Assembly (NCBI GenBank): GCA_003693705.1
Contig: RBZT01000633.1
Span: 62,001-126,000, forward strand
Reading direction: 5' to 3'
DNA: 64,000 nucleotides
Source: Polymyxa betae
Taxonomy: Eukaryota > Endomyxa > Phytomyxea > Plasmodiophorida > Plasmodiophoridae
In this document: in pieces, positions 22,125 through 42,190 of the stretch
How positions within the stretch are numbered: position 1 is the first letter of the stretch
How the letters are laid out: the number at the start of each line of letters is the position of its first letter
Notes under the pieces: generated by a model
Told to the model about the DNA's origin: nothing
Databases searched by the model: none
What the model saw: only the letters and a program-made list of their open reading frames with translations
Translations under genes and position numbers: made by a program

Positions 22125-25100
22125 ATGAGCACCGCCAATCCTTACATAGATGAGGAGGCTGAAGTCTCATCCGACGACGAGAACTTCCAAGTTTCTGAGG
22201 ATGAAGTTTCTGAAGATGAGGAAGAAGAAACAGAACGTCTCAACAAAGAAATGATCGCTGACGACGAAGAAGTCGAAGAGGAATTAAAGCGGGCCAGGGC
22301 TGAAAGGAGGCGTCAAGGCCAATCGACAGAAGAGCTTGTTGATGATGATTACTTATTACTTGAAGACCATCATGGTGTCAGATTCAACAGGAAACGAAGA
22401 GCAAGTGCAGGTAACTGTCCTAATACTTCCTTGTCAAATTTGTTTATCATGTGTTAGTCGAGGCTGCTGTTGATGGAAAAAGAAAGCGTCTGCAAAGGCA
22501 CGTCGAAAGCGATGAAGAAGACGTCGCTGAGGATATACCACGCCTGAAACAATCTGAACAATTTGAAGAAGACGATTACGGTCTATCGGATGATGAACCA
22601 GAACAGGGCAAAGACGATTGGCTGGATGACGATGTTGGAGCACGAAGAAAACAAAAAATGACGTCCGATCGCAGATCGGCGTCATTGTTCGGCGAGGCTG
22701 GCAGCATTTTCGGCGATATGACCGAGTTTTTGGCACAGTCTCAGATGGACAAGGAAGACGCTGATGAAACGGCAGTGGTAATTCAAGTTTGAATTCTTGC
22801 AGGATATATGCTAATGCCTTTGAAAGGCGCATCGCGATAGTCATGTCGAACCTTCTCTTGCTGCTCGACATATGGTTACCGCTGCCGATGATGTTATTCG
22901 AACGACAGATCAGCCCGAACGCCTGCAGTCTCGCATAGCGAATCGGGTTGTTCCTGATGAAGACCCGAAGGAGTTCCTCTTCCAGGAAGCTGAATGGATT
23001 CATCAAACGCGATATTCATCATTGGTATGACGTCAAACGGCTTTTTTCGCCGGTCTTAGATAAGAATTTAGCCTCCCGATACAACTGTTCCTTTGATTAT
23101 GACGGTTTTGGAGATGATTCGCGCCCATAATCTTGATGTGCCTTACATCCAAACTTATCAGAAGGACTATTACAGTCCTTTAGTTCCAGATGACATTTGG
23201 ACGATCGACCAATGCGATGAGAAATGGGACCATATTGTCGCGAAAAGGATCAATGTTTCTAAGCAAAGTATGCCGGTTTTTCAAACGACCTAATGCATTG
23301 ACTTGGAGTGTTTAGTTGAAAAGCATTTGCCGAATGATACTGAGCTACTCAGCCAAATAACCTGTGCTGTGGATGACGATGAGATCGAAGATATTCGTAA
23401 TTATGTTACGACTCGGACTTCAGCATTATCAGGCAAGAAGGTTCTACGTCGCGGCAACGTTCCCGAATCGCTGGATGATTCTTTGATGGAATCGCTTGTT
23501 CGTACCCTGTTCCTAGAGCCTCGTCAGGTCGGGCAGAATTTCCGCGCCCGATTCTTACAAATTGGTCCTACCGACCCTGAACAATCACCTGAAACCTTCT
23601 CGCAAGGTATTTTGTTTTGTTGCAGATTATGGATGTATCTGACAGCTCTTAGGTCTCGTGTCTGATAAATATAAAACCCCGGAAGAAGTGCTGGCAGCCG
23701 CCAGGCTGCGATGTGCTGCTGCTGCGGCCTGTGACCCCTTCGTTCGATGCGCCATCCGAGAGCGGTTCATGGAAGCCGCTGTTATTTGCACGAACCCGAC
23801 TGACAAGGGTCGACAAGTTATCGACTGGGCTCATGAGTGCGGCAGATCTCATTTTTCGTGCTTGCTGATCGTTTAACTGTTGTTGTAGATATTATGAAGT
23901 GAAACATTTGGTTGATAAGCCTATTCGGATGTTTTTGGCGGAACCATCTGTACAATTTGCATTGCTGACACGAGCGGAAGCGGAAGGCTTCATTACATCG
24001 ACAATTCGCATTCCTCAAGGCGACACCGCTTCCAAGCCTTTAATCAACGAATTCCAGGATCTGTTCCAGTCGACGGGATTGAGCTTAATCTGTCAACAAT
24101 GGAACGAACAACGTCGTTTAGTGTTTCAAGAAATTGTGGATCGTTTTCTGTTCAAAACTTTGGATTTTTGCACTCGGCGCAAGCTCCTGATGGTTGCACA
24201 TGAAGCCTTACTTGACCGGTGCATGAAGAGGTAAGGTTTTTGCTGCCTTGAGTTTACAGTTAGCATTAATGGTTGACAGGCTTCAAGATATATTGAGTCT
24301 GGCTCCACAACCTCGTGACAAGCTCATCTGCGCTTGCAGTGTCGGCGATCGTTCTGATCCCAGCTATGTTGCGATCATTGACCGGCAAGGCCTCATGGTC
24401 GATCACATCTCGTTGCCCTATATGAAGCTGTATTGTCGGAAATCAAATAACAAAAACTTTAACGGTTTGACTATCTGGCTGCGATTGCCCTTCTTCCATT
24501 GACGATTGTTTTTCAGATCTGAAGAGTAAAAAGGGGCAAGATGCTCGAAGATTTCGATCTTTTATTGAGCGGTACTCACCTGGGTTCATTGCCGTTTCAG
24601 CAGATTCGCTGGATGCGCGAGAATTCCATTCTGAGGTGCTCCTGTAATTTGCTGCTTCCTCAATAGATGGCTTAGCACTAGTGCAGGTAAAATTAGCCCT
24701 TCAAAGTCGAGCTGGTGACATCCCTGTGGAATTTGTGGATCCGTTCTCTGCCAGAACTGCGATGAACTCTCGAAGAATGACTGAAGAGCTCAGCGAGCAT
24801 CCACCGCTGTTACGCCACGCTGTTGCTTTGGCAAGATACGTACAAGACCCGTTGACCGAGGTATTGTAATACTGTCTCAGTCACTTTTGTCTCAGTCGTC
24901 TTCGTTCAGATTTGCAGTGCCTCTGTCGATCCCACTGACCTGGCGAGCTTGCCCCTTGATCCTTTGCAGAACTGTGTTCCTCAAACGATGCTGTTACGTG
25001 GGTTGCATCGCGTTTTAACCAATTTCGTCAATCATGTCGGAGTCGATATTAATCTTGCCATATCCCAAAACCATCTACAGGGTGATAGTACCATCTCTTC

Positions 25101-27172
25101 GGAGAATCCATTGATTTGATAATATTTCGCTCAGGTCCATTGCACTTTGTGAGCGGTCTAGGGCCACGAAAAGGTAAAGCAGTTGTTGACTTTATCAAAA
25201 GGAACGGGGCGATGTCATCCCGGGAGCACCTGAGCAAGATTCTTGGTGAATGCGTCTATCGCAACTGCATCGGATTCTTAAAGGTTATTGCTCCACCCTT
25301 CTCTCAGGTTGTTATCAGCATCGTCAATTAGCTTATTTGGATATTCACTGCACTTTATCCAGATGAGTATTAGCCCGCTTGATGAAACCAGGATTCACCC
25401 TGAACATTATCTGCTTTCTGATCGTGTCGTCGTGAACGCCCTCGATCTCGAAAATTCAGAAGCCAACCCCGATGCCCCACGATTCTCGCTGATCACCCAG
25501 CTTCGTACACCAGCAAAGCGGTACAAACTGGACGAGTTGGATCTGCAGGCATACGCCGAATCGATGGAGAAGGAAGGCGAGGGCCGATACCTTCAGACGT
25601 TGTTAATGATCAAAACTGAGCTGAAATCTGCTTTTGCCGACCAGTTGAGGCATCCCTTCGAGTAACTTTATCATTTGTGTGGTCGTAACATTTATGACTT
25701 GTTGTTAGACCTGAATCGCTTGAGTCTCTATTTCGGCTGCTGTCCGGTGAACAGCCAGATGTCACTTTGTATCGCGGGCAGATTATTGATGTTGTCGTCA
25801 CTAGCGTCACACGAGCTGGGATGATAGCCAGACTTGATTCGGGCTTACAAGCGTGGATCCCAAGCTCAGCGTATCCGGAAGGCTTTGCTGATCGTCAAGG
25901 TGACGAAGACATTGAGAAAACACTTTCCGATGCCTTCAAACACGTCAGAGTCATAATTACTCGAATTGATTTCGTCTGATGCTTGCTTAGAGGGGTACTA
26001 TTCGGACCCGATTGGTTTCGATCGACTATGAAAGGCTTCGGGTGGAGCTGACAGCTTCTGAAAGAGATATATCCAATAAGGAGTAAGTTTTTTGGTTTTC
26101 GGCACTCTTTTTGATAACAGACAATTTTGGTAGAATGTGGGAAGTTCCGTTTCGTAACGATCCATACAATGAGCCGATAACCGAAGAATCTGTTACCGGT
26201 GATGACGGATTATCAACCAAGCCAGCGAAGCCGAAATCTGTTCGCAAATTCATTCCTCGAAATATCGACCATCCTCTGTTCTCAAACGTCGATCGAGAGA
26301 CTGCTGAGAGCATGCTGAATGAAGCTGTAGGTTATTCGTTTTAGTTGATCGTTTCTAAATATAGTTTAGCCTGTGGGTGATGTTGTTATCCGACCGTCGC
26401 GTTTGGGCACCCATCAGCTGACGATAACGTGGAAATTTGCAGAGGACATATATGCTCACATTGCTGTCAATGAGTATGATAAACCCAATGATGTGGCTAA
26501 GGCGTTAGGGCGACGTCTTACTATCGAAAATGAACATTTTGAAGGTAATTACTGTTCTGTCTGACAGTGTAAATATAACCAGAGCTCAGATTTGGATGAA
26601 ATTTTGGCTCGATATATCAGGCCCTTAACAAAGTACGCGGAGGCCATCGTACAGGAGAAATGCTTCCGATATGGTACTGAAGAGGAAATCGATAGGCTGC
26701 TTAAAGATGAAAAGGAGGATGAGGTTGATTCTTTTGCACATGTTTGGACTCCCAGCTAATGTTCATATAGCCTAAGCGAATCCCCTATTTTTTCGGATAT
26801 TCCTCAAAGCACCCAGGGTTATTTGTATTCTCATTCCTGCCAAGCAAGCATGTGGTTCACGAATTGGTAAAGCTAACTCCAAAAGGATATCGATTTCAGA
26901 AGCGAAACTTCACCAAGGCGAGCCAGATCATTGCTTATATAAAATCAGATTTTGTCAAGCAACTCAAAGAACGCTCGAGAAAGGTACTGGTTTGAATGAG
27001 CTCTGTTTCACCAACTGCTGATTGCGGGTTTCGTCAGGCTGCTTCATTGAAAGCTCAACAAACCGCTACAAGCCCATCGAAAGGCCATTCTAGATGGGGC
27101 GAGCCTATAACTCAGGCATATGGTCGACCTCCTACTCATCCTGATCGCAGGCCCAATCTTCGCTACGAATAG
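22125..27172 (+). CDS. SPT6: Transcription elongation factor and histone chaperone SPT6
   Basis: Conserved elongation factor that travels with Pol II and reassembles nucleosomes. Roughly 20 exons join by frame with introns of about 36-60 bases. Order of parts: acidic N-terminus (EEAEVSSDDENFQVSEDE onward); the core start TAADDVIRTTDQPERLQSR; VPYIQTYQKDYYSPLVPDDI; the YqgF-like and HhH region, with GLGPRKGKAVVDFIKRNGAM and KILGECVYRNCIGFLK; DETRIHPEHY; an S1 domain (VTSVTRAGMIARLDSG); and the tandem SH2, whose first repeat contains PVGDVVIRPSRLG and ends EDLDEILARYIRPL. The last exon ends RRPNLRYE. All expected domains are present. The splice near 25281-25363 is the least certain: one intron of about 83 bases or an exon extension. 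Confidence 0.93.
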
Positions 27173-27629
27173 TCGCCTTATTCTTGATGTAATCTGCACT
27201 AGACATACATTTATATAAAATCTTAATCAAAGCTATCGTTGCATTCATTCGGTGATTTTTCATCTGTAACTGCAAATCGAAACCGGAAAAAGTGATAAAA
27301 ATCGTGAGGGCTGCGCTGGATCGGTGGTCATCACATTTGACGGTGACGACGATCTTTTGTGAATTTCCACTTGGCGGTATAGAGGCATTGCCTCGTTATC
27401 GAACAGGCGATTGCAGATAAGACTATCCTGGGTCGTTGGGGCAATTTTCTGTTGCATTCAGCCAGTTTTTGGACTGATCCCCAGCGGCCTGAATGGCTGA
27501 TCCGTAATCACTGCAATTTTACTCTCTTTCCTAAGTTCCAGCACTATATATCTTTGCCCTCGCTATCGTTCTTAACATCTTTCGAAATCTTTGAAGTAAC
27601 ATTTTATTGAATGTTATTGTGGTCATTAG
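27173..27629. other. Intergenic / unresolved 5' end of ADA2
   Basis: No clear gene. It probably contains the first one or two short exons of ADA2; an ATG at about 27494 followed by a GTAATC donor is a candidate. Confidence 0.4.
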
Positions 27630-29553
27630 GGAAGTGATCAGAGACGATGAGAGCACACAAGGTTCTAACGCGTTTGGCCCCTTTTTGCGCTCGTTTATGT
27701 AGCTATAGACGATGAAGAAATTACCATAAAGCGAGTCGCTCAGCATCTTTGTGATTACTGTCGGAAAGACATCAGCCAACAGATTCGTATTAAATGTTGC
27801 CAATGCACCGATTTCGTTCTATGCGTCTTTTGCTTTGCTGATGGCGTCGAACTTAATATTGACGATCAAAACAGCCATGTGAAAACCCATCCGTACTCTA
27901 CTGAAATTTCTCTTTATTCTTTATTGATTGCCCTCGGTAGGTATCGGGTCATTGATCGCATCAATGCTCCAATATTCGATGAAGAATGGACTGCTGATGA
28001 TGAGGTGACTTTGCTTTCACAGTTCTAATACGCTTTTATTGACTTCGCTTTAGTTAATGTTATTGGAAGGCTTAGAGCGATATGGAATGGGTAACTGGCA
28101 AGAAATAACTAATCATATTGGATCGAAGAGCAAGAACAAATTGAAAATCGAACAGCATTACTGTGGCGTTTATCTGAATAGCAATATGAAACCACTTCCA
28201 GTATTATGAACATGTTTCTGCTATTCAGACCGTTGTTCACGTCTTCCAGGATCCCAATACGGTCTTAAACCCATCGCTGTATGGTAAAGATTCAACGAAT
28301 TACGGCTTGGTGACCACTGATGGAAATTCCATGACGCCCGATGTCACTATGCAATCGGCACCAACGAAACGAAAATTAACGGCAGATGCTCAAGCTGCTG
28401 GATACAGGTTATTAAACTTCTGCTGAATATATTTAGCGTTCTTATTTAGTGCTAGGGTGAAACGACGTGATTTTGATACCGAATTCGATAACAGTGCTGA
28501 AGAGCTTTTAAATGACTGCACTCTGTATGACTATAAAGACGATGCTGTCAAGCTACGATTGACATATAGGATGCTGGACGTTTTTAATCGAAAGGTTCGT
28601 ATCGTTTGAGGAGTTCGTTGTTTTATCATTCAAGCTCAAATTAGTTGGATGAGCGTGTTGAACGGAAGAAGTTCCTGATCGATCGGGGTTTGTTATGGGT
28701 TCGGTCGCATTCCAAGTATAAGCACAACAAAGAATTTAAAGCCTTCTATCAGCAAGCCAAAGTTTTCAGTCGTTTCTTCTCTTCTGAAGATGAGTTCACA
28801 GAGTGGGTGCTTTTCGAGCAGGCTTAGACGGATTTCTAATATCGTCTGTAGGTTTGTTGAAGATTTACACAAGCAGAAAATAATCGTTCGTGATGTAGCT
28901 GAATTGTGCGAACATCGTCGTAATGGTGAGCTCGATGTCCCTTTTTGTTGTGAGTGCGGCTTATCAGCTGGCTTCAGGTATTCGAAGCTTTCAAGAAGAG
29001 TTTGTATATAAGGAGCAGTCGGTTTTAAGAGAGGCTCTGGGATCCACAGCTGAATCACAAGACACAGATTGCAGCCCTACCCGGATTGCTGGTGGAAGCA
29101 GGTTTTTACCTGTCGTCGTTAATGATCTGTTGGTGTTGATTGTTCGTGCTAGAGCGGACTTGGCAGCATCTGTTGCAAACGATCTTCTAAGGCGACGTCC
29201 ATTCATTCCGGAAAATTGTATTGCTAGTCCTGATGGATTCGACATCTCGAACATGGAATGTGTCGAATTGTTGGATATGGAAGAGCGCGCGATTTGTACC
29301 AAATTTCATATGCTGCCGCGACATTTCAATATGCTAAAGCAAAAGTCAGACAGTGTACTACTTCTGGCTATTATTTGTAATGATTGTCTGATACAGAATT
29401 TGTTTGCAATCCTACGCTCAAGGTTACATCAATCTCAAAGATGCCATTCACGCTTGTGAACCTTTAGATCCCACTACCGTCACATCGCTCTATAATTTGT
29501 TTCTGAAGCGAGGCATCATCAATTCACAACCTGCAAGCGTACCGCCATCGTAA
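27630..29553 (+). CDS. ADA2: Transcriptional adapter ADA2 (SAGA/ATAC complex), 5' end incomplete
   Basis: Adapter that binds and activates GCN5 acetyltransferase. The first placed exon is 27630-27661, then an intron 27662-27708. The ZZ zinc finger follows (HLCDYCRKDISQQIRIKCCQ, CTDFVLCVFCF), then the SANT domain (EEWTADDELMLLEGLERYGM, NWQEITNHIGSKSKN). The middle region EFVEDLHKQKIIVRDVAELC with EHRRNG corresponds to the conserved ADA2 helix. The C-terminal SWIRM domain contains FHMLPRHFNMLKQ, CLQSYAQGYINLKDAI and NLFLKRG. About nine introns of 43-51 bases. I could not find the starting Met with confidence. Confidence 0.88.
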
Positions 29554-30277: not shown

Positions 30278-33200
30278 ATGCAGGTCGATGACGAGTTCGC
30301 CGAAAAACTCGTGCACGGCGATGCAAACAAGCTCGCATCGCCTGAGCCGTTAATCGGCACTATTTATGTCCCAGATCTGTACCTTGTATATCGCCAGGCA
30401 CGAGGAGGGGCTTTTTGCCAAATTGCTTCTAACCAGCAATGTAGGTCGGTATCCTTAGCGTGAATGATGGGATCGCGACCACTCGATCTGGTGATGGGCG
30501 TATTGAGGCGTTTCCATTGAGCGATTGCCTGAATGTGCCAACGTACCCTGAATATGGTACGACCAACACAGTTCTTTCGAGGCATCGCTGAGCTCGATAC
30601 AGGATATAACGATATGATTGAGATGGAATCTTTGCATACCGCCTCGATTCTGTATAATTTGCGAATTCGTTTCGCGGCCGACATCATCTATACTTACATG
30701 GGCGGGATCCTGATCTCAGTAAACCCGTTTAAATATATTGACCTGTATTCGCAAGAAACTGTTGAGGCTTATATGGATCAAGGCATGCATAAAACGGCAC
30801 CACATATTTATGCCATATCCGATTCTGTATATCGAGCCATTCTTCGCCAGGAAGGCAATCAGGCGGTCGTGATCAGGTCTTCTTATATAACGCAATGCTT
30901 TTATGGAATTTGAAACATATTTGTTTGTTTTTCTCAACTCGTTGACTTTGAGAAGACTTCTCCGATATGTAGCTTGTTGAATAAGGACAGAATGTAATGT
31001 TACAACCCCCACAGTTCGGGTTTCATAGACAGTGATTTGGATTTTTTGTCAAAGCTGCGTCTTCGTGCTTCATCTCAGTTACTGTTTAGTGGTGAGAGTG
31101 GTGCTGGCAAGACTGAAGCCGCCAAAATCGTTTTGCAGTATGTGGCCGAGGCGGCGACCCGGATCCATCCTCCCGAAGGTGCGACAACGGATGCGGAGAT
31201 GTTTCCCGTCCATGAGCGAATTTTGGCGTCAAATCCCATCCTAGAAGCATTCGGGAACGCTAAAACAATTCGCAATCATAACTCGAGTCAGTGTCATCTT
31301 GATGGCGTCAAATACAGTCTGATCTTTCATTCAGGTCGATTTGGGAAGCTCCTGCAGGCCGAGTTCGGGCAATTTGGTGCACTGATAGGTGCTTCGTTTC
31401 AAACATGTAACTACATTTGCTGTGTTTTTCTATTCTGTTTTTAACGCCCTTGATTCAGTTTTGTTGGAGAAAGTAGGCGATTCGTGATTCCGCAGCCGCG
31501 TCTGATTTGGTTGTAGTCGCGGGTCACCAAGTTGAACGCCAACGAGCGAAACTTTCACGTTTTCTACTACCTTCTTGGCAGCATCGATAGCGGTGAACGC
31601 GGTATGCCATTTGCGCCGCCAACATTTCAGCGTCACGGCTGATGCAGTGCCTCAGAATTATGGCAGCTTGGTGAAGTCAGCAACTATCATTACCTGAACC
31701 AGGTCGTCGACCATGAAGCTGTTGGCGAAGATCGACCAATGGAGTTGGCTAGGCTCAAAGTGACACTGTCGCAATTCATCGCTCAACCTTTTTTTAATTT
31801 GCGACCATAGGCAGCGATGTCAATTGCGAATTTCTCTCCTGCTGAGCAGAATGCAATTCTTAATATTGTCGCCGCCGTCTTGTGGCTTGGAAATATGCAG
31901 TTTTCAAGTGAGGAAAACTGCCGAGTCGTCAGTCGCGACGGTTGGTCGACATTTGTTTTCACCCATTTTGTTCCATGACGCACGATCGCAGTTTTAAATT
32001 GGGTGGCGTATCTGCTTGGTTTCGATGCATCTCAATTAGAGCGTGGATTAACAATCCGAACGAATATCATTAAAGGTCAATCTTGGTGTTTGAAGATTCT
32101 ATCGGTATTAAGCGTTGCCTGCAGGTGAGAAATTCGTCGTACCACTGGATGAGTCTCAGGCGACGGATACGCGGGATACGTTAGCGCAGCATATCTACGC
32201 TAAGACATTCGATTGGATTGTTGCCAAACTCAACGTTTCGGTGCGTTAACTAAAGTTTTCCAGGAATATTTGCTTTTCTTTCTATGAGATTTACCCGCCC
32301 CTTTGTTCAGCCTTTTGCTAACTGATAAGAGTTTTTGTTGGATTATTGATTGTATTTGAATCAGCTTCAAAGCGCCCAAGGTCATGACAGCATTATCGCC
32401 CTGCTGGATGTGTTCGGCTTCGAAATCTTTGAGCATAATTCCTTCGAACAGATTTGCATCAATTACGCCAATGAACGCCTACAAATGCAGTTCAACGATT
32501 ATGTTTTTCGCCTGGAGCAGCAGGAGTATGCCCTAGAGGGCATCACAATTTCTGACATCAAATTCACCGACAATCAAGGCTGTATTGATCTGATTGAAAA
32601 GGTTGTTTACTGGCATTATGCTTCGATATCTCTGACTTGTTACTCAGGGGCCGGTTGGCCTGCTTTGGCTCATTAACGAAGAAGCGCATTTTCCAAAAGG
32701 CACTGATCAGACGCTTTTGCAGAAAATACAGAGCAATCATTCATCATCGGCTTTTTTCGAGCCCGATAAATTCAATGGCGCGTCGTTCTTCATAAATCAT
32801 TTCGCCGGCAAAGTGAAATATGAAGTCACTGGATTTTTGGCTAAAAATCGCGAACGGTTCACGAAAGACTTAATTGAATTGATCGCTGACAGCACCAATA
32901 CTTTCCTGGGTGAAACATTTGCGAAGGTTCTATCTGATTTGAAAGTCGTCGAAGATGGCAAAAAGCAGAAAACAGCGACAAAATCAACGTTGGCGCTTGA
33001 ATTTCGCCGCAGCTTGGTAGAGCTGTGCGACAATCTGGCGTCCTGTCAATCAAATTTTATCCGCTGCATTAAATCGAATGATGGATGCCGGCCAAACGAT
33101 TTCGATAACGTTCTTGTCAATCGTCAGCTAAGGCATGTTACCGAATGCTACTTTAGATATATAATTAACATCGATTAGATACATTGGGGCGCTTGAAACC

Positions 33201-36200
33201 ATCCGGATTCGTCAAGAGGGCTTTGCGCAACGTCGCTCAAAAGGTAGTTTATGTACGTTGTTAGATCACCAACATTTTGCTGAAGTTTTCGAAGAGAATT
33301 TTTTGGATCGGTACTGGTGTGTTGTGCCGCTACATCTTCGTGGGAAAACTCCTGATCTTGGAATTATTCTCCAACAATTATCGGCTACCGACAAAGAAGG
33401 AATCGTTGAAGGTGCCACGAAAATTTTCATCAAGTCGGAGATTTTTGAACTACTCGAACGAAAGCGTTTCGAGACTACGGTTAGTCGTGGCAAATCTTGT
33501 TTTCACTGAAGTTAACCAAGGCATAGGCAAATGCTGCTGTTTACATCCAGACTCGTGTCCGGTCTTGGCTAATGCAGCGACAATATCGACGCTTGCGATC
33601 AGCTATCCAGACCGTACAGGCTGCACTTGCCGTGTATATTTGCCAAAACGATTGCCGGAGGGAGATTGCAACTGCATTGGAGAACATCTCAAGTGCATCC
33701 TCAATCGAGTCGCTGCGTCTATGCATCAAGGTGAAGCTGATTGAAACCGATTGAACTTTGAAAAGACTGCTTTCAGCACTTGGCAGTCGCTGGAGTTAAA
33801 AATCGCTGACTAAATTGCAGAAGAGCCACCGGGCAGTAGATTTCGTAATCGATTCAGATGGAATCGACCGAATTGTCGGCGCATTGCTAGCAGCACGATC
33901 GCCAGTGCAACGCGGCGATCTTATTTCGCTATTATCGCTGCTGATGAACGACTTTTATAGCGCTAATCTGATCGCGTCCAGGTGGTGACACCGCTTTTTT
34001 CTTGTCTGTGTGCTGAGTCTTTAGCAGGCATGACTATGATCCGATCTTGGAACACATGAACCGGGTGCCGGCTGGAATACTTTTATTACAGAGACTTGTG
34101 GAATTCCTGCCGAACATCGCACGGATTGCTAGTTCGAAGACGAATGCCGCTAACTCCTCTGTGTAAGTTGGCGCTTTCGGTTTGATACATTATTTGAATG
34201 GGCTTCAGATTGGCAACGGTTCTTGAAAAGGGCGGAAAGGGAGCGGCAGTTGCATTCGGGCGCGACGCCAAGCTGATTTTTGATCTGGTCGCCGAGCTTA
34301 ATGGTGCTAAATTTGCAGCCCACAGCGTATATTTGTTACATTGCCTCGCGAAGCTCGCAGACATCAAGAACAATCATCAGGTCTGCCAGACCATGCGTTC
34401 CGGAATTTGAGGTTCATTATGAGTAGGCGCTGTTGAACGCTGGAGTGATTGAAGCCGTACTGGGTGCTTGGGGTGACAATCAGCAATACGGTGAAATCGC
34501 CTGCACGCTGTTGGAACGCCTCAGCACCGTTATCCCAGCCTCGCTAATTCCGAGCTTGGCTCTGGTTGCAGAACAGCGTCCCCAATTCGCACCCAAACTG
34601 CTTCGCATTATCTCTGAACTGATCCAACGAGACCCTGGCACTCAAATCGATCGGCAAACCATAATTAGAGGGGTCACCACTTTCTCCGACCCAGGTAATT
34701 TACTGCATCATGACGATTGGACTTTAGTCTGATACTTGCAGAATCGTTGCGATCATTGCTCGCAATTATATCGACATCGTATGAATCCCGGATCGATGAC
34801 GAGTTGATGCAAGTCGCAATCTCCTCAGCGCTACGTGTGCTAACAGATTTTATCAACTCGAAAGCAGCAGTCGCCGCAGCCTTAAACAGTCTGCTTTTCT
34901 TCGTAAGTTTCCGTTTCGCATATCCATCAAGCTTTCGATCTGAACTGGAGCTTCTAGCTGGGCAACGATTCCAACCACACCTTTCGGTTGCTCTCTGAAA
35001 ACAACGCCCTCGGACCGCTCTGCTCCTGCGTTGCGTTTCATCACGGCGACGGTGATATCATTCCTAAAGCTCTCCGCCTCGCAGAATCGATGATGAGCGC
35101 TGATGATATCGCCGACAACATACATGAGATTTCGGACGCTCTGCTGTCAGGTGCCGAATTTGATCGCTCCGTTCGCGTTATCGCTACCGCCTCTTACCTC
35201 GAAGGCCATGTTGATAATTTGATTTCCGCTAATGCCGTTTCAGTAATGCTGTCCATTCTACAACAGTACCCTCGAAGAATAGATGCTTGTCTTAACGCCA
35301 TTCGGTGCTTAACCAACCTGTCAAGGTTCTCTGAAGCGGCTCGTAAACAAATGGTAACACCGCGTTGCTTTGTCAGTAGACTTTTCAAGCATGTTTTTCT
35401 CCAACTTAGCTCATTTGTCGCATATTACCAATGTCGGTTTTATTTAGGAACATTTGAACGGAACTGGAATTATTAGGAATGCCGTTCACTTCTCGCCAGC
35501 CCTTCTCGAGGCATACTTCGATTTTCTCGGTACGCTTTGTTTCATCGGATTCGATACCAATTTCAAAATATTGGCCTTCAGAATTCAATCATGTACCAAT
35601 GGCCAGTGTTTTCGCAATGCCTGGCATTATTGAGCAAATCACGAGGAATCCGGCAACAGCGAGCGCTGCGATTCGGGCTATTCTGCGATACAATTGCGCT
35701 GATATCTCTGGGGTGACGCAGGCTATTCTAGCTGCGATTCCACATCTCGACCAGGGCCAAATTGCTGATGTCCTACAATTCATTGAGGTGTGATATCATA
35801 TAATTCACTTTCGATTCGCTGATTACATTCAGTTGCATGGTGACGCTATCGATCACGAGCTCACGACGGAGATTCTCAACGTGCTACTGAACATGCGTTC
35901 CAAGGCGTCATTGCAAGATATGGCATTCCTAAAGTTTGTTCATCGGTCAATTCGCGCGACAGCATTTGGAGATGTGCAGCTGAAGTCCATTTGGAATCAG
36001 GTTCTGAAAGGCAGTGTGTCGAAAATCCTTATTTTTAAATTAATTGCAGATGGTTGCCTTGTTACCAAAGTTGAATTCTCAAGAAGCATCTATGACACTC
36101 ATGATTCTTAGTGAATTGTGTGATCAATCAGCTGAGTTTCTTATTTTCAATCCGAAACGGAAAGGAAAATTGCAAGCTCCTCTTGCAAATCATCCATCTT

Positions 36201-39200
36201 CGTCGCTGATTTCTGTGAGCTAAATTGCATTCTGATTTTTATGTTAATATGGCATTTGTGCCATTCCGCTGGCATTGGCACTAATTGACTTTTCAGTCGT
36301 GCCTACAGCAAATCGCCGATACAGCTGTGGATCTTCTGACTCTTCTGGCCAGCTCTTCTGCACCGAGAAAAAGGCACGTTTTGATGGCCCAGGATGCTTC
36401 CTGTAATCATATAACGGAACCTGCTTCGATTTTGTCTTCGATTGCTCAATCTGATGCCGTCCTGTTTGCTCAAATCCAAGGGATGGCATCATTTGATTCA
36501 GCGATCGCCTCAGCGCTAAAGGTCTATAACGGCTCTTTCTTTGCCGAAAATGTAATTCTGAACCAGCACAGGCGTTAGCGATTGGCGAAGGAACTGTTGC
36601 GCATCAGAAAGCTCTTGATTCGCTCGGCCCTCTATTGACATCATCGATATTGATGAGTGACGTAATAGATTGTCTGGATAGATTTCCAAATTATGATCAA
36701 TTTATGTCATGTGCAATTCCTGTTCTGACGGATAATATTCGAGCACATTCAAAGAAGTTCGCCGACCCTGGATTGGACTCGAGGATTCTATCAAGTCTCG
36801 CTAATATTTTGTTCAACAATTTCGTATGAGGGGTTTGCTCGACAAGTTTTGGATATTGATCTGACTTTCGCAGCCTTCAGATCATGTGATAGATCAGACG
36901 TTGCAGCTGTGCGAAGCGTTTCTAATCGCTCCTGACGCTGATTCTCTGTACATCGCCCCGTTATTAACAATTCTGATATTCAAAGCTGTTACCAGGTTGG
37001 CTGATGAAAGACTTACTCAGTGTGTACTCACCGGAACCAAACGTCTCGGGATGTGGCATGGCGATGTTCTTCGAGCATATTTCATGATTGGAAATGTAAT
37101 TGAAGCACTGCCAGTCGATCAGCTGTCTACTATGAGCAACGCATTGTTGTCGTTCGTCGCAGAAGGGATGCTTCTGCATTCCGATTCCGTTGTAATTCAA
37201 TTAAATGGCCTCGATCTGTTGCGAATCATTGTCAGTAAAGCTGCAAATCCCATCACTTTGGTCACCAATGCGATGCTGCATTATGCTCTTGACAATGCTG
37301 TCGAATACCACATCATGGACAGCGATGTTTGCACGAAAGGTAAATAGTCGATCATTGACACTGTTTAATTGAGAATATCCTATCAGCTCTGGAAATTGCT
37401 TCTATTTGTAAACACATTGGCCAGTATCAAGTTTTGCAGCAGCAAATTAGCGAACATGATGCGTTTCTTTTAATGAGCTTGCCACGTGTCGCACGACAGA
37501 AACGCGATTACGGTCGCGTTCTGGAACAGTTGCCCAGCCAGAATGATGATCATAAACTCGAATTCCTTATGTCGGCTTTACGCCTGCATGGTCATAACAA
37601 AACTGTAGCGAAGCTGCTCCTTGATATGTATATTAAATTTTCTAGGATCTCGCGAAAAATTGAACTTCTTGTGTGTCAGGTTGGACGGAGCCGATCCTGC
37701 ACAAATCCTTCCAATAGAAGATGATCTGACGTACGATCTGTTGAGTAACTTTCGTAATTCGTTCTGACAATGAGAATAGATTGTTTGTCTTGCAGAGCTG
37801 GGCCGGTGACGAGGAACTTACTGGACCTGGACGTCACATCCTGGCCCGGATCACTGCTCATCGACAGAATACAGAAGATCAAGTATGGGCAGCTGTTTAA
37901 CACTCTACTTTGTGTGGTAACTTTTGCTTTAGGCTCTCAAACAAACTCTTTTGGATCATGATGCTATTTTCTTGATCAATTCCATGAAGTCTTCTCCGAC
38001 CAACAAACGTCTTGTAACTGTAGCGTTGAGAATGTAACGATTTGATCGGCCTTTTTAAATGTTCGCTTAATGGAATGTTGGCGCAGACTTAACGAAGCTA
38101 ACGATGATTATTTAAATGCTGCCGATATAGAAAATGAACTCTCGTACGTCAGCATGATTGAGCAACACCTGGTTTCTGAATCGGGTTTGACCGGACAGGT
38201 TTCTGATTCGATCACATTGGAATAATGATCAGGAATTACAATCTTTGGGCAACCACGTACTGGCGAAAATTCGGGTATGATGTTTCCGGTGAGAGTGAAC
38301 TTTGTGTCTTTGCTAATTCATAATAGGACTTGGATCAAATCATTCTAGAGCCGATTGGATTTGCTGACACTCAGGTTGAATCGAGGACAGTAACTGCATT
38401 CGTGCTGATCATGCCCATAGGAATCTGTGAAATCATTGATCAACGATATCAAAGACGCCGAGGAAGACAGTTTATGCGATTCCGATGCTAAGGTTCTACT
38501 TCGTTTATTGCAGGCCCTCAATCGGTATATTTAGCTAGCATTGCTGCGCTCATGATTTTAATGCTTCTTCTAAGGTACCCAGATGATGTTGAAATGAGCA
38601 GTGATATCGCACAAGGAATATGGCGCCTGAGTAGCGTAAGAATGTCGCGAGATAAGAAGAATGTTAGATATCACCAGCGTTTATGTAAATCAGTGAACTG
38701 ACTGGATCAAGGTTTGGAGAGGAACAGGAATCGTTATAATTATTCGCGCTCTGAGTGTCCATATATTTTCTCCGACAGTGCTCTTATGGTGATTGTTCAC
38801 CGCGCTGCTGAGAATCCTTTCTGATTGTCCTATAAAGGCTCTGCCAGATTTTGAGTCTGCTTAGTGAAGATGAACACTTGAAGTCGCTAATTGGCATCCA
38901 TAGTGGGATTCCTGCCGTCTTCAAAGTCCTGCGCCAATATTTCAACCCGGATCCAGATACAAGTGACCTGCAGAATGCCTGCGCGGAAACAATCGCCTTG
39001 GTATCGCATCATAACCCTGCTAATGTAGCAGAGATTGTTCAGGGTAAACGAAACGTTGTGCAACTAAGCTAATGCATATTCATTTCGTATTGTAGATGGC
39101 GGTATTGCCCTGATGATCTCGCTGATAGACTATGAAAGTGTCGGATCCGAGTTGTTGGTCAATATCTTAGTGATTTTGACAAATGTGGCACAAGTCAGTA

Positions 39201-41201
39201 ACGGCAACAAGGTGAAAATTGTTGAGCAAGGTGGCGCTCGTGTCGTAGCGCTAGCGCTGACTTCATCAGAAACGAGCGCCGATATCATCGCCATCCAGGT
39301 AATTTGACTTGTTTTAACCCTGCAGATGGTTTATTCGAGTTCAGATCACAATGCGATGCATTGCTTCGCTAGCTATGGTATCTCAGAACGCTGATAAACT
39401 CGTCGAGGATAACGTCGTTAAAATTATTGCCACGGTTTCCAAAACCCACATAGAAAACACTCAAGTCTCAGAACAGGTTTGATGCCTTGTTTCAGCAATG
39501 TCGCCATCTTAACACCGAATTCTAGGCTGCGCAAACTATGCAAAACCTGTCTGGATGCAGCGATAAATCGAAAGAATCGATTGTCCGACAGAAAGGTGTT
39601 CACACGATTCTGTCGTTATGGGATGCGCACTATACCAACATTGTGATTGTGAACTCATGCTTAACCTGTTTGCATCAGTTATGCTCTACAATGCAATCGA
39701 GTGCCATTCCGGCCTTAATCTGCAAGCTCGGTTAGCAAAAGAAGCTCAGCAACAGGACATATTTGAACATGTAACAGGTGGTCTTGACATGCTTCTAAAG
39801 CAGAGTGAATCATTGCTGAACAAGGAGACCCTATTCGCTGTATCAGTGCAGCTACTTGCCGATCTGGCTTTTAATGAACAGATCTGCAATGTGCTGGTAG
39901 ACAGATCGATTGTGAAACGAGTAATCCAGGCGGCCGATAAACACGCCTTTGACATGAACATCGTCAAATCTGTTCTAAGGCTGATCATCATTCTGGCCAA
40001 CGCATCCGAAGAATTGTGCATTGATGTAAATAATCAACTCCATTTCAACCTTTGTCTGACTATTTGTGCTAGGTAGCCAAACAAGGGGCGATGGAATGGC
40101 CCAAATTAATGATGTCAACTCGACCAGATTCAGTAGATCTCTGGTCAGAATGTATGCTTTGCTGGACAGCATTAGCAGGTCACGATGTGCTAAGCATTCA
40201 AACCGAATATAACCATGTTCTACAGGAGCAGCACAGAACATTCTTATCGCACTGCCATTCATTGAGTCAGTCAACGTCGGCTTAGAACGGTTCAAGCACA
40301 ACGTGAATTTTGTAAAATGTGGCGCAACGCTATGGTCGCGGCTATCCATGTATCCAGTTGGGATCAAGTTGATGATAGAGCAAAAATGCATTGCCACGAT
40401 CTTGCTAACACTAGCCGAACATTCCGATGTTGCATTCGTTATTGAGAAGTTAGTAAGAACTCTTACGAACATGGTATCACTGGTTTTAGTATGGAGCTTC
40501 AAGAAATCAAATTCGTCTTGGTTAGGTTACGATTGATATGTCATCATATTCGATTCTGATCCGTGAACGGGCCCCGAAACTGATCAAAGAACTTGTCAAT
40601 CGTCATTCGGGGAATAAAGTCACCGTTAAAGTTTGTCAAAAGTTCCTGAGTCGTATGGACGAGCTGGCTGCCATGGACGCTCATATTGGAAGCGTTCGCG
40701 ATCGTGTTCCTAAAGACATGCTTAACATGATCACCGGTAATCAGATGGTACATGGGTTATTGTTTGAGATTGACTTTGATAATAGCCGGTTCCATATTCC
40801 GAAAAATGCCCAAAGGCAACCGTCGAATCGTTTCGGTTTCAGAAGATTGCCAGTATCTAATTTGGCAAGATCCGAAAACATCACAGACCAAGTCGCTGGG
40901 TTTCTGTCATGTCAGCGAAGTCAGGTAAGACACATAAAAATGCATCAGCAAACTACTGCATTAAATACATGGAACCCATAGGCCCGGGGCCTGTACGGCA
41001 GAATTACAGCACAAACCGTTGGTTGGTCGACCAGCGGACCCATCGGCCAGTTTTGCCATCTTCAGCAGACGGCAGAAAAATCCGTTGTCGTTAGAGGCAC
41101 AGAGCCCGGAAGTAGCTCGAGCTTGGCTGGTCGCTCTGGAGCTGCTGCAAACTCTGAACCATCGAGGCAATGCCAAAGAGGCGTTTGACAGCAGTAAATA
41201 G
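30278..41201 (+). CDS. Giant myosin: motor, IQ motifs, armadillo-like repeats, C-terminal PH domain
   Basis: Actin motor with a very large tail, roughly 2,800-2,900 residues over about 40 exons. The N-terminal SH3-like piece includes [16 protein letters not shown]. The motor has P-loop [16 protein letters not shown] (31090), switch I NHNSSRFGK split by intron 31287-31334, HYLNQ, switch [22 protein letters not shown] (near 32400), [20 protein letters not shown] and [15 protein letters not shown]. One or two IQ motifs follow ([20 protein letters not shown], near 33550). The tail runs about 33.7-40.5 kb as helical repeats of armadillo/HEAT type, for example [19 protein letters not shown] and [12 protein letters not shown]. 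The C-terminus is a PH domain: [58 protein letters not shown]; stop 41199-41201. No stop, start or spacer separates motor and tail. The first exon and the splice near 37740-37800 are uncertain. Confidence 0.85.
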
Positions 41202-41430: not shown

Positions 41431-41478
41431 GTGGAATCTGGATGCTTGGAATCAGTCCTGAGAAGGAAACAGGTGAGC

Positions 41479-42190
41479 ATGGGTTTGCTGCAGATTCTGA
41501 AGAAAGTCAAACGCAAAGAGAAGCAGATGCGTATTCTAATGCTGTAAACATCCCCCATATTAGAATATTTCTATATTGCATGTCTGAGATGCGATTTTGT
41601 GCAGCGGCCTGGATAATGCCGGCAAGACCACGATCGTGAAGAAGTTCTCTGGTGAAGATGTCACTACTGTTAGTTCAGCCATGAAATCATGGTGATAGTT
41701 CGTTGATTTTTATGCTGCAGATCAGTCCTACTTTGGGGTTTCAAATATCGACATTAGACTATCGAGGGTATACATTAAACATCTGGGATGTTGGAGGACA
41801 GACCACAATCCGTTCTTATTGGCGTAATTATTTCGAAAGAACGGACGGTCTGATTTGGGTCGTTGACAGCGTCGACGTTCTACGGTTGAAAGAATGTCGA
41901 GCACATCTGCACGAGATTCTTCAGGAAGAGGTCGTTGCACGGTTCACGACGTCGCTATCGCTTATGGTTTGTAGAGATTAGCTGGCGCGTCGTTGCTGAT
42001 CCTTGCCAATAAACAAGATCTGGATGGAGCTTTGAGCCAGGAGCAGATGGCCGAAGTCCTGCAGCTGGATAGGATCGTCTCACATCATTGGCAGATCGTT
42101 GCGGTTTGTGCAACATCCGGCCAAGGCTTGCATCAGGCAGTCGATTGGCTCGTTGAGGACATCGCTAATCGTATCTTTTTACTGGAATAA
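41479..42190 (+). CDS. ARL2: ARL2, ADP-ribosylation-factor-like small GTPase
   Basis: Regulates tubulin folding cofactors and delivery of lipidated cargo. Exons are split by introns at about 41545-41608, 41665-41721 and 41938-41981. The start [18 protein letters not shown] matches human ARL2. P-loop GLDNAGKTT; switch I SPTLGFQI; switch [31 protein letters not shown]-terminal IANRIFLLE. All guanine-nucleotide motifs are intact. ARL3 is the alternative, but the N-terminus and SHHWQI favour ARL2. The start at 41479 gives the family's exact N-terminus. Confidence 0.93.

Follow-up and report, generated by a model that had tools for sequence, protein, structure and literature searches.

Within a 64,000-nucleotide (nt) stretch of contig RBZT01000633.1 from Polymyxa betae (contig positions 62,001-126,000, forward strand; referred to here as the window), a single gene is predicted to encode a myosin motor, a very long armadillo (Arm) repeat tail and a C-terminal PH domain. 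The coding span (30278-41201, + strand, as are all of its features given below) comprises 50 exons that specify a conceptual protein of 2,718 amino acids (aa) and end with the stop codon TAA at 41199-41201. Orthologs from Spongospora subterranea (P0001) and Plasmodiophora brassicae (P0002) share this order of parts, and together with Pfam they confirm the motor, putative IQ motifs, repeats and predicted PH domain at the place and on the strand given in a preliminary description of this DNA, along with its reading of a single myosin whose tail is armadillo-type and ends in PH. Myosin tails determine what actin motors do, and the plasmodiophorids include the parasites that cause clubroot and powdery scab as well as vectors of beet viruses. 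The Rhizaria are thinly sampled, with one of 62 taxa in a survey of myosins (PMC3942036).

Gene model and parts of the predicted protein

The window (about 45.8% GC) is eukaryotic DNA rich in short introns. Spliced genes were called with a self-written gene finder trained on the window and a further 200 kb of sequence from the same genome, which as a sanity check recovered the neighbouring Spt6-like, ADA2-like and Arf-family genes. At the myosin locus its output was a motor with IQ motifs and an extended helical tail. The first spliced model combined its output with two exon choices made by eye, and in the final model six intron choices were corrected on the orthologs with no base changed. The tail had been described previously as an open stretch of about 7 kb, which is wrong, as the final model contains 49 introns. 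Forty-four of these span 44-57 nt and the other five 82, 90, 94, 124 and 213 nt, sizes that fit the peak at 45-55 nt found by the self-trained finder across about 264 kb of the genome. Introns of 21, 26 and 34 nt in the first model were dropped for ones of 51, 90 and 55 nt, which the orthologs fit at these sites. The introns at 30877-31089 (213 nt) and 32241-32364 (124 nt) are long for this gene, but no hidden exon is expected in either because the orthologs are contiguous there. Two GC-AG introns (33133-33178, 46 nt; 30398-30444, 47 nt) are backed by the ortholog alignment.

The N-terminal segment (GTIYVPD..., residues 1-75; exons 1-2, 30278-30556) shares 44.6% identity with P. brassicae across 74 residues, while the Spongospora record begins later. 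The motor domain follows (30603-33479), matching Pfam Myosin_head at 1.3e-198 over residues 76-767 of the first spliced model, and at 3.5e-210 and 1.5e-210 in P0001 and P0002, respectively. Its P-loop GESGAGKT (31091-31114), switch I NHNSSRFGK (31274-31348, interrupted by a 48-nt intron at 31287-31334 that is inferred from both orthologs) and switch II DVFGFE (32407-32424) are canonical, and these motifs are intact in both orthologs, whose alignment moved an intron choice that had masked switch I. With a full Myosin_head and all three motifs, the protein is a member of the myosin superfamily, and the complete motor head proposed from the outset stands. By the TEDS rule, Glu399 (32127-32129, counted by hand on the sequences with the coordinate counted back) marks the TEDS site, and the same hand count places an acidic Glu there in P0001, P0002 and the metagenome relative P0221. 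Among motors of solved structure, those closest in sequence are myosins X, Va, VIIa and XV. A putative IQ-type lever shows the visible pattern of one IQ motif and a degenerate second (33527-33640); Pfam IQ reaches only 0.15 in the first model, below its cut-off. At the motor-tail junction, removal of a 90-nt intron (33731-33820) leaves a 17-letter protein stretch that is equal in length in both orthologs.

The tail contains approximately 1,750 residues of helical repeats. Region A (33821-37932) is an irregular ARM/HEAT-like solenoid, as judged from a model of the Spongospora equivalent, and region B (37933-40525) holds canonical Arm repeats that are better conserved (50-58% identity to the orthologs), followed by the end of the repeats and a conserved linker helix (40526-40735). 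On the first model, Pfam ARM_ARMC5 (1.4e-11; 44.8 bits against a cut-off of 79.9) and Arm (0.0052) both fall below cut-off. The orthologs also match ARM_ARMC5 below cut-off (3.2e-17 in P0001, 3.6e-14 in P0002), and each has a single Arm repeat at or above cut-off (over it in P0001). Structure was modelled on the Spongospora ortholog, whose tail was divided into two parts, each of them paired only with the Plasmodiophora sequence. The region A model contains 66 helices and zero strands (mean predicted local distance difference test score, pLDDT, 71.1; predicted template modelling score, pTM, 0.38). The model of region B with the PH domain has 47 helices before its first strand (mean pLDDT 65.9, pTM 0.48), with pLDDT mostly 70-87 at residues 160-680. 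Foldseek returned the Toxoplasma glideosome-associated connector (GAC) as the best PDB match to the whole region A model (E 9.9e-10), and the axonemal protein 8j07 and beta-catenin as the top matches to region B (E 5-6e-9). A second aligner matched region B to importin-alpha (26.8) and to beta-catenin and Vac8 (both 24.2), and the first 400 residues of region A to beta-catenin (24.1), Vac8 (23.4) and importin-alpha (23.0), the remainder of region A being barely covered. By these models, the tail is predicted to be an Armadillo-repeat fold of stacked three-helix repeats in a superhelix, in which regions A and B are probably joined without a break. A search with the tail only (residues 860-2650, first model) gave zero matches among 7,994 scored candidates, which is no evidence of absence because the same search missed the true orthologs, presumably via its word filter. 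A viral origin was considered and rejected: when the region B model was compared by fold with viral models, a single match fell below 0.001, a Pithovirus importin-beta-binding-domain protein.

The predicted PH domain (40736-41198), of the phospholipase C (PLC) type, is encoded on exons 40786-40924 and 40982-41198, and its first codon begins at 40736, where the preceding exon ends. PH_12 matches weakly in the whole first model (0.029, below cut-off) and in the whole P0001 (0.17) and P0002 (0.18). When the PH stretches are cut out alone, however, PH_12 is matched in all three, if weakly (best 1.7e-4, the first member below cut-off). In a search of PDB sequences with these stretches, seven of the eight matches at E up to 1 were PLC-delta1 or PLC-gamma (best 0.0025), and the window stretch alone reached PLC-delta1 at 4.1e-4. 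The structure model of this part is poor (Spongospora piece, pLDDT 27-43). Where the fold begins, basic residues are conserved in the window protein, P0001 and P0002, and one of them aligns on PLC-delta1 Arg40, a ligand contact. Lipid binding by the predicted PH domain is plausible.

Orthologs, relatives and motor phylogeny

Two protein searches yielded 7,958 and 5,977 matches, the best 120 of each being listed to give 223 distinct proteins. The first used the motor as bait with a length range of about 1,520-4,850 aa taken from the whole first model, and the second covered proteins of about 800-2,540 aa. The best matches of the first search were P0001 (2,666 aa; 1,070 bits, 65% identity) and P0002 (2,790 aa; 1,023 bits, 62%), with the next at 788 bits and 35%. 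P0002 is collinear with the window protein from the N-terminus to the PH domain; the P0001 record begins at the motor and is collinear from that point onwards to the PH domain. Because of this collinearity the domain combination is not due to chance, and the order of motor, neck, Arm tail and PH is kept in three plasmodiophorids. The motor (residues 76-740) is 69.3% identical to P0001 and 65.7% to P0002. In the same order, the values are 49% and 45% for the neck (741-840), 51-58% and 50-53% for region B (2001-2480), 69% and 58% for the final repeats with the linker (2481-2600), and 72% and 62% for the C-terminal 118 residues, while region A (841-2000) is 22-34% identical to the orthologs.

Among the 223 proteins listed, Myosin_head and ARM_ARMC5 occur together (precomputed Pfam column) only in P0001, P0002 and P0221, that is, in two plasmodiophorid proteins and one metagenome protein among the 120 matches listed per search. 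P0221 is a metagenome protein of 1,028 aa from the JGI that lacks its C-terminus but has a motor, IQ and Arm repeats. Its motor is 42% identical to that of Spongospora over 618 columns, and it is collinear with the window protein through the neck and the beginning of the tail (BLASTP 5e-11, neck included; hhalign E 2.4e-7, probability 93). This protein may point to a spread of such myosins beyond plasmodiophorids; no relatives of it were found in viral and prokaryote genome contigs.

Motor-only trees were built with 35 rows, including 27 of the 223 listed proteins, and with 31 rows following removal of two long branches and two over-long stretches. The three orthologs, P0221 and a second P. 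betae myosin on contig C255 form one clade, with a Shimodaira-Hasegawa-like approximate likelihood ratio test (SH-aLRT) value of 99 in the larger tree, bootstrap/SH-aLRT of 100/99 in the smaller, and 99/99 after removal of the long C255 row (30 rows). The clade rests on the tree, as pairwise identities of the window motor barely differ between its members (43.6% to P0221, 42.9% to C255) and other classes (up to 42.0%). The motor falls outside classes I, V, VII, VIII, X and XV, of which representatives were sampled and whose names follow source names, with plant 'myosin-1' rows assigned to class VIII. Classes II, IV, VI, XI, XIV, XXI, XXX, XXXI and other rhizarian classes lie outside the tree sample.

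Predicted function and alternative readings

The closest counterpart in layout is Toxoplasma GAC (PDB 8bt6, 8c4a), which links actin to adhesins and membrane in Apicomplexa and is described as 37 ARM/HEAT-like repeats, 16 canonical ARM repeats and a PH domain that binds phosphatidic acid (PMC10125020). The window protein matches this order of ARM/HEAT-like region, canonical ARM region and C-terminal PH, in architecture only, and shares the connection to an actin system; a further likeness is an extended N-terminal helix on the PH domain (PMC10125020). GAC differs from the window protein in lacking a motor, in binding F-actin directly and in its number of repeats, 53. GAC chains are absent from PDB sequence matches at E up to 10 with two-sequence profiles of the tail, and from the best 50 rows of fold matches for the region B model. 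It is doubtful, though conceivable, that the tail and apicomplexan GAC descend from one ancient connector of the SAR (stramenopile, alveolate and rhizarian) lineage that stayed or became fused to myosin in Rhizaria and acts in trans in Apicomplexa, which would make the plasmodiophorid protein a case, beyond Apicomplexa, of a glideosome-type transmitter of force from actin to membrane in one chain, and a member of an old myosin class.

Use of an ARM domain as the cargo hook of a cytoskeletal motor has a precedent in ARK1-type kinesins, as the ARM domain of ARK1 binds the endoplasmic reticulum protein RHD3 (PMC7606470). These are, however, microtubule motors of a different family. ARK1-type kinesins are not known to have a PH domain. 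Vac8, Vac17 and myosin V form a link in yeast, and ARO is an Arm-type protein, but in both the Vac8-yeast myosin V and TgARO1-TgMyoF pairs the motor and the Arm repeats belong to different proteins. The association of TgMyoF with TgARO1 is described as indirect (PMC7880465). Myosins with a PH domain in the tail, which the earlier list of known tails omitted, include class X (PF00169) and the heterokont classes XXX and XXXI (PMC3942036). Class X tails differ in carrying MyTH4-FERM and those of class XXXI in carrying ankyrin and Aida_C2, and the window motor lies outside class X. What is new is the long Arm solenoid in a myosin and its pairing with a PH domain, a PH domain in a myosin alone being already known. 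The view that no known class combines the two stands insofar as no description of a myosin with this tail was found in the open-licence papers searched. The words armadillo, ARM and HEAT were not found in the searched text of two myosin classification papers, the larger of which left 287 sequences as unclassified orphans. The survey applied Pfam gathering cut-offs (PMC3942036), to which the tail would be largely invisible given that ARM_ARMC5, Arm and PH_12 are below cut-off in the first model and the orthologs reach it with a single Arm repeat only; this can explain why the class is unnamed.

The chances are about even that the protein is an unconventional actin motor whose tail serves as a built-in membrane connector, and by analogy with the systems above a motor with its connector in cis appears to be the best reading of its working mode. 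The motor would bind actin and walk on it, perhaps single-headed, while the groove of the Arm superhelix would hold cargo or adhesion proteins, in the manner of beta-catenin, Vac8 and the ARK1 ARM domain. The PH domain, with its conserved basic start, would anchor the other end of the chain on a membrane enriched in anionic lipids, so that membrane or membrane-bound cargo would be pulled along actin. One chain would then perform a task that in apicomplexans is split between a separate myosin and GAC. The conservation pattern, high at the ends and 22-34% in region A, is what would be expected if a spacer or scaffold linked two functional ends. Likely settings would be plasmodial streaming, pseudopodial engulfment of host cytoplasm or organelle placement; phytomyxid plasmodia phagocytose host material, in an account whose text does not mention myosin (PMC10953367). 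The combination of a motor, a beta-catenin-like superhelix and a PH end provides a testable model of membrane movement on actin in plasmodiophorids.

It is possible, though less likely, that the Arm tail instead forms a soluble scaffold for proteins or a ring with an autoinhibitory role, with the PH domain as a protein-binding or structural end and not a membrane anchor. TgGAC crystallises as a closed ring, and its key lipid-binding PH residues are reported as not essential for invasion (PMC10125020); the top Arm fold matches are also mostly soluble adaptors. Yet the PH domain and linker are among the best-conserved parts of the protein, and the basic residues at the fold start are kept, which argues against this reading.

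UCS chaperones are Arm-type proteins, and the UCS domain is far smaller than the tail of the window protein. That the Arm tail acts on its own motor as a built-in folding chaperone of the UCS/UNC-45 type is highly unlikely: UCS chaperones do fold the myosin head (PMC9331494, PMC6803673), but this tail ends in a PH domain and UCS families are not among the listed Pfam matches of the first model, P0001 or P0002.

Scarcely credible is the misreading of two adjacent genes as one, namely a short myosin that terminates near 33754, then an Arm-PH protein that begins with the ATG at 33944. The ab initio evidence does weigh against a single gene, since a free run of the finder ends the first gene at 33754 and starts the second at 33944, scoring -15247.2 (-15246.9 for the best two-gene model) versus -15250.4 for one gene. 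An earlier run gave -16291.0 (free) versus -16298.0, though there the unconstrained model took in part of the following gene as well. The preference of about 3 nats in the later run is too little to decide, and a single gene is preferred because both ortholog proteins are continuous across the motor-tail junction, which contradicts the separate gene after the IQ motifs that the preliminary description had raised. Furthermore, the residues from 33821-33943, outside the second gene of the split model, align gap-free to P0001 and with one one-residue gap to P0002; the split model drops the last PH exon; and the distant relative P0221 combines motor, IQ and Arm in a single protein. P0001 may be derived from a transcript, as it is listed from uniref, eukprot and metaclust without a contig and a Spongospora transcriptome has been published (PMC4471660).

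Neighbouring genes and other myosins of the genome

The gene is preceded on the same strand by a 20-exon Spt6-like gene (22125-27172, +; named by eye) and, just upstream, an ADA2-like gene (27611-29553, +), and is followed by an Arf/Arl GTPase gene (41442-42190, +). All nine own-genome matches to P0001 beyond its residue 1,000 lie at this locus, and no second copy of the gene was found among the 18 of 48 first-look candidates that were scored. Myosin_head is matched on ten contigs (C7, C115, C204, C234, C255, C269, C298, C309, C338 and C418), corresponding to perhaps about ten myosin genes. Those on C234 and C309 cluster with the sole class I row of the tree (100/100).

The myosin of the same motor clade (C255:190856-184032, - strand; loci L009, L020, L048 and L049) has a motor 44% identical to P. 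brassicae P0002 over 439 columns. The finder returned it in two pieces, assumed to be one gene. The first is an incomplete motor (470 aa), and the second has IQ motifs (Pfam 2.8e-6) together with a tail of about 850 helical-looking residues that contains one in-frame stop and zero Pfam Arm matches. Comparison of this tail with that of the window protein did not establish homology: hhalign gave E 0.0096 and probability 4, compared with 0.25-0.68 for six controls (one reversed, five shuffled). A Tub-family gene (1.3e-75) begins about 430 bp past this myosin; class XXI myosins can carry Tub. On contig C7 (9591-13841, + strand; loci L001, L014, L016 and L018), another myosin ends in PTEN_C2 (3.4e-7, over cut-off). 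Before this domain lies HSKGGRGR, which reads as a phosphatase loop carrying Ser in place of Cys, and the tail would be a putative tensin- or auxilin-like pseudophosphatase.
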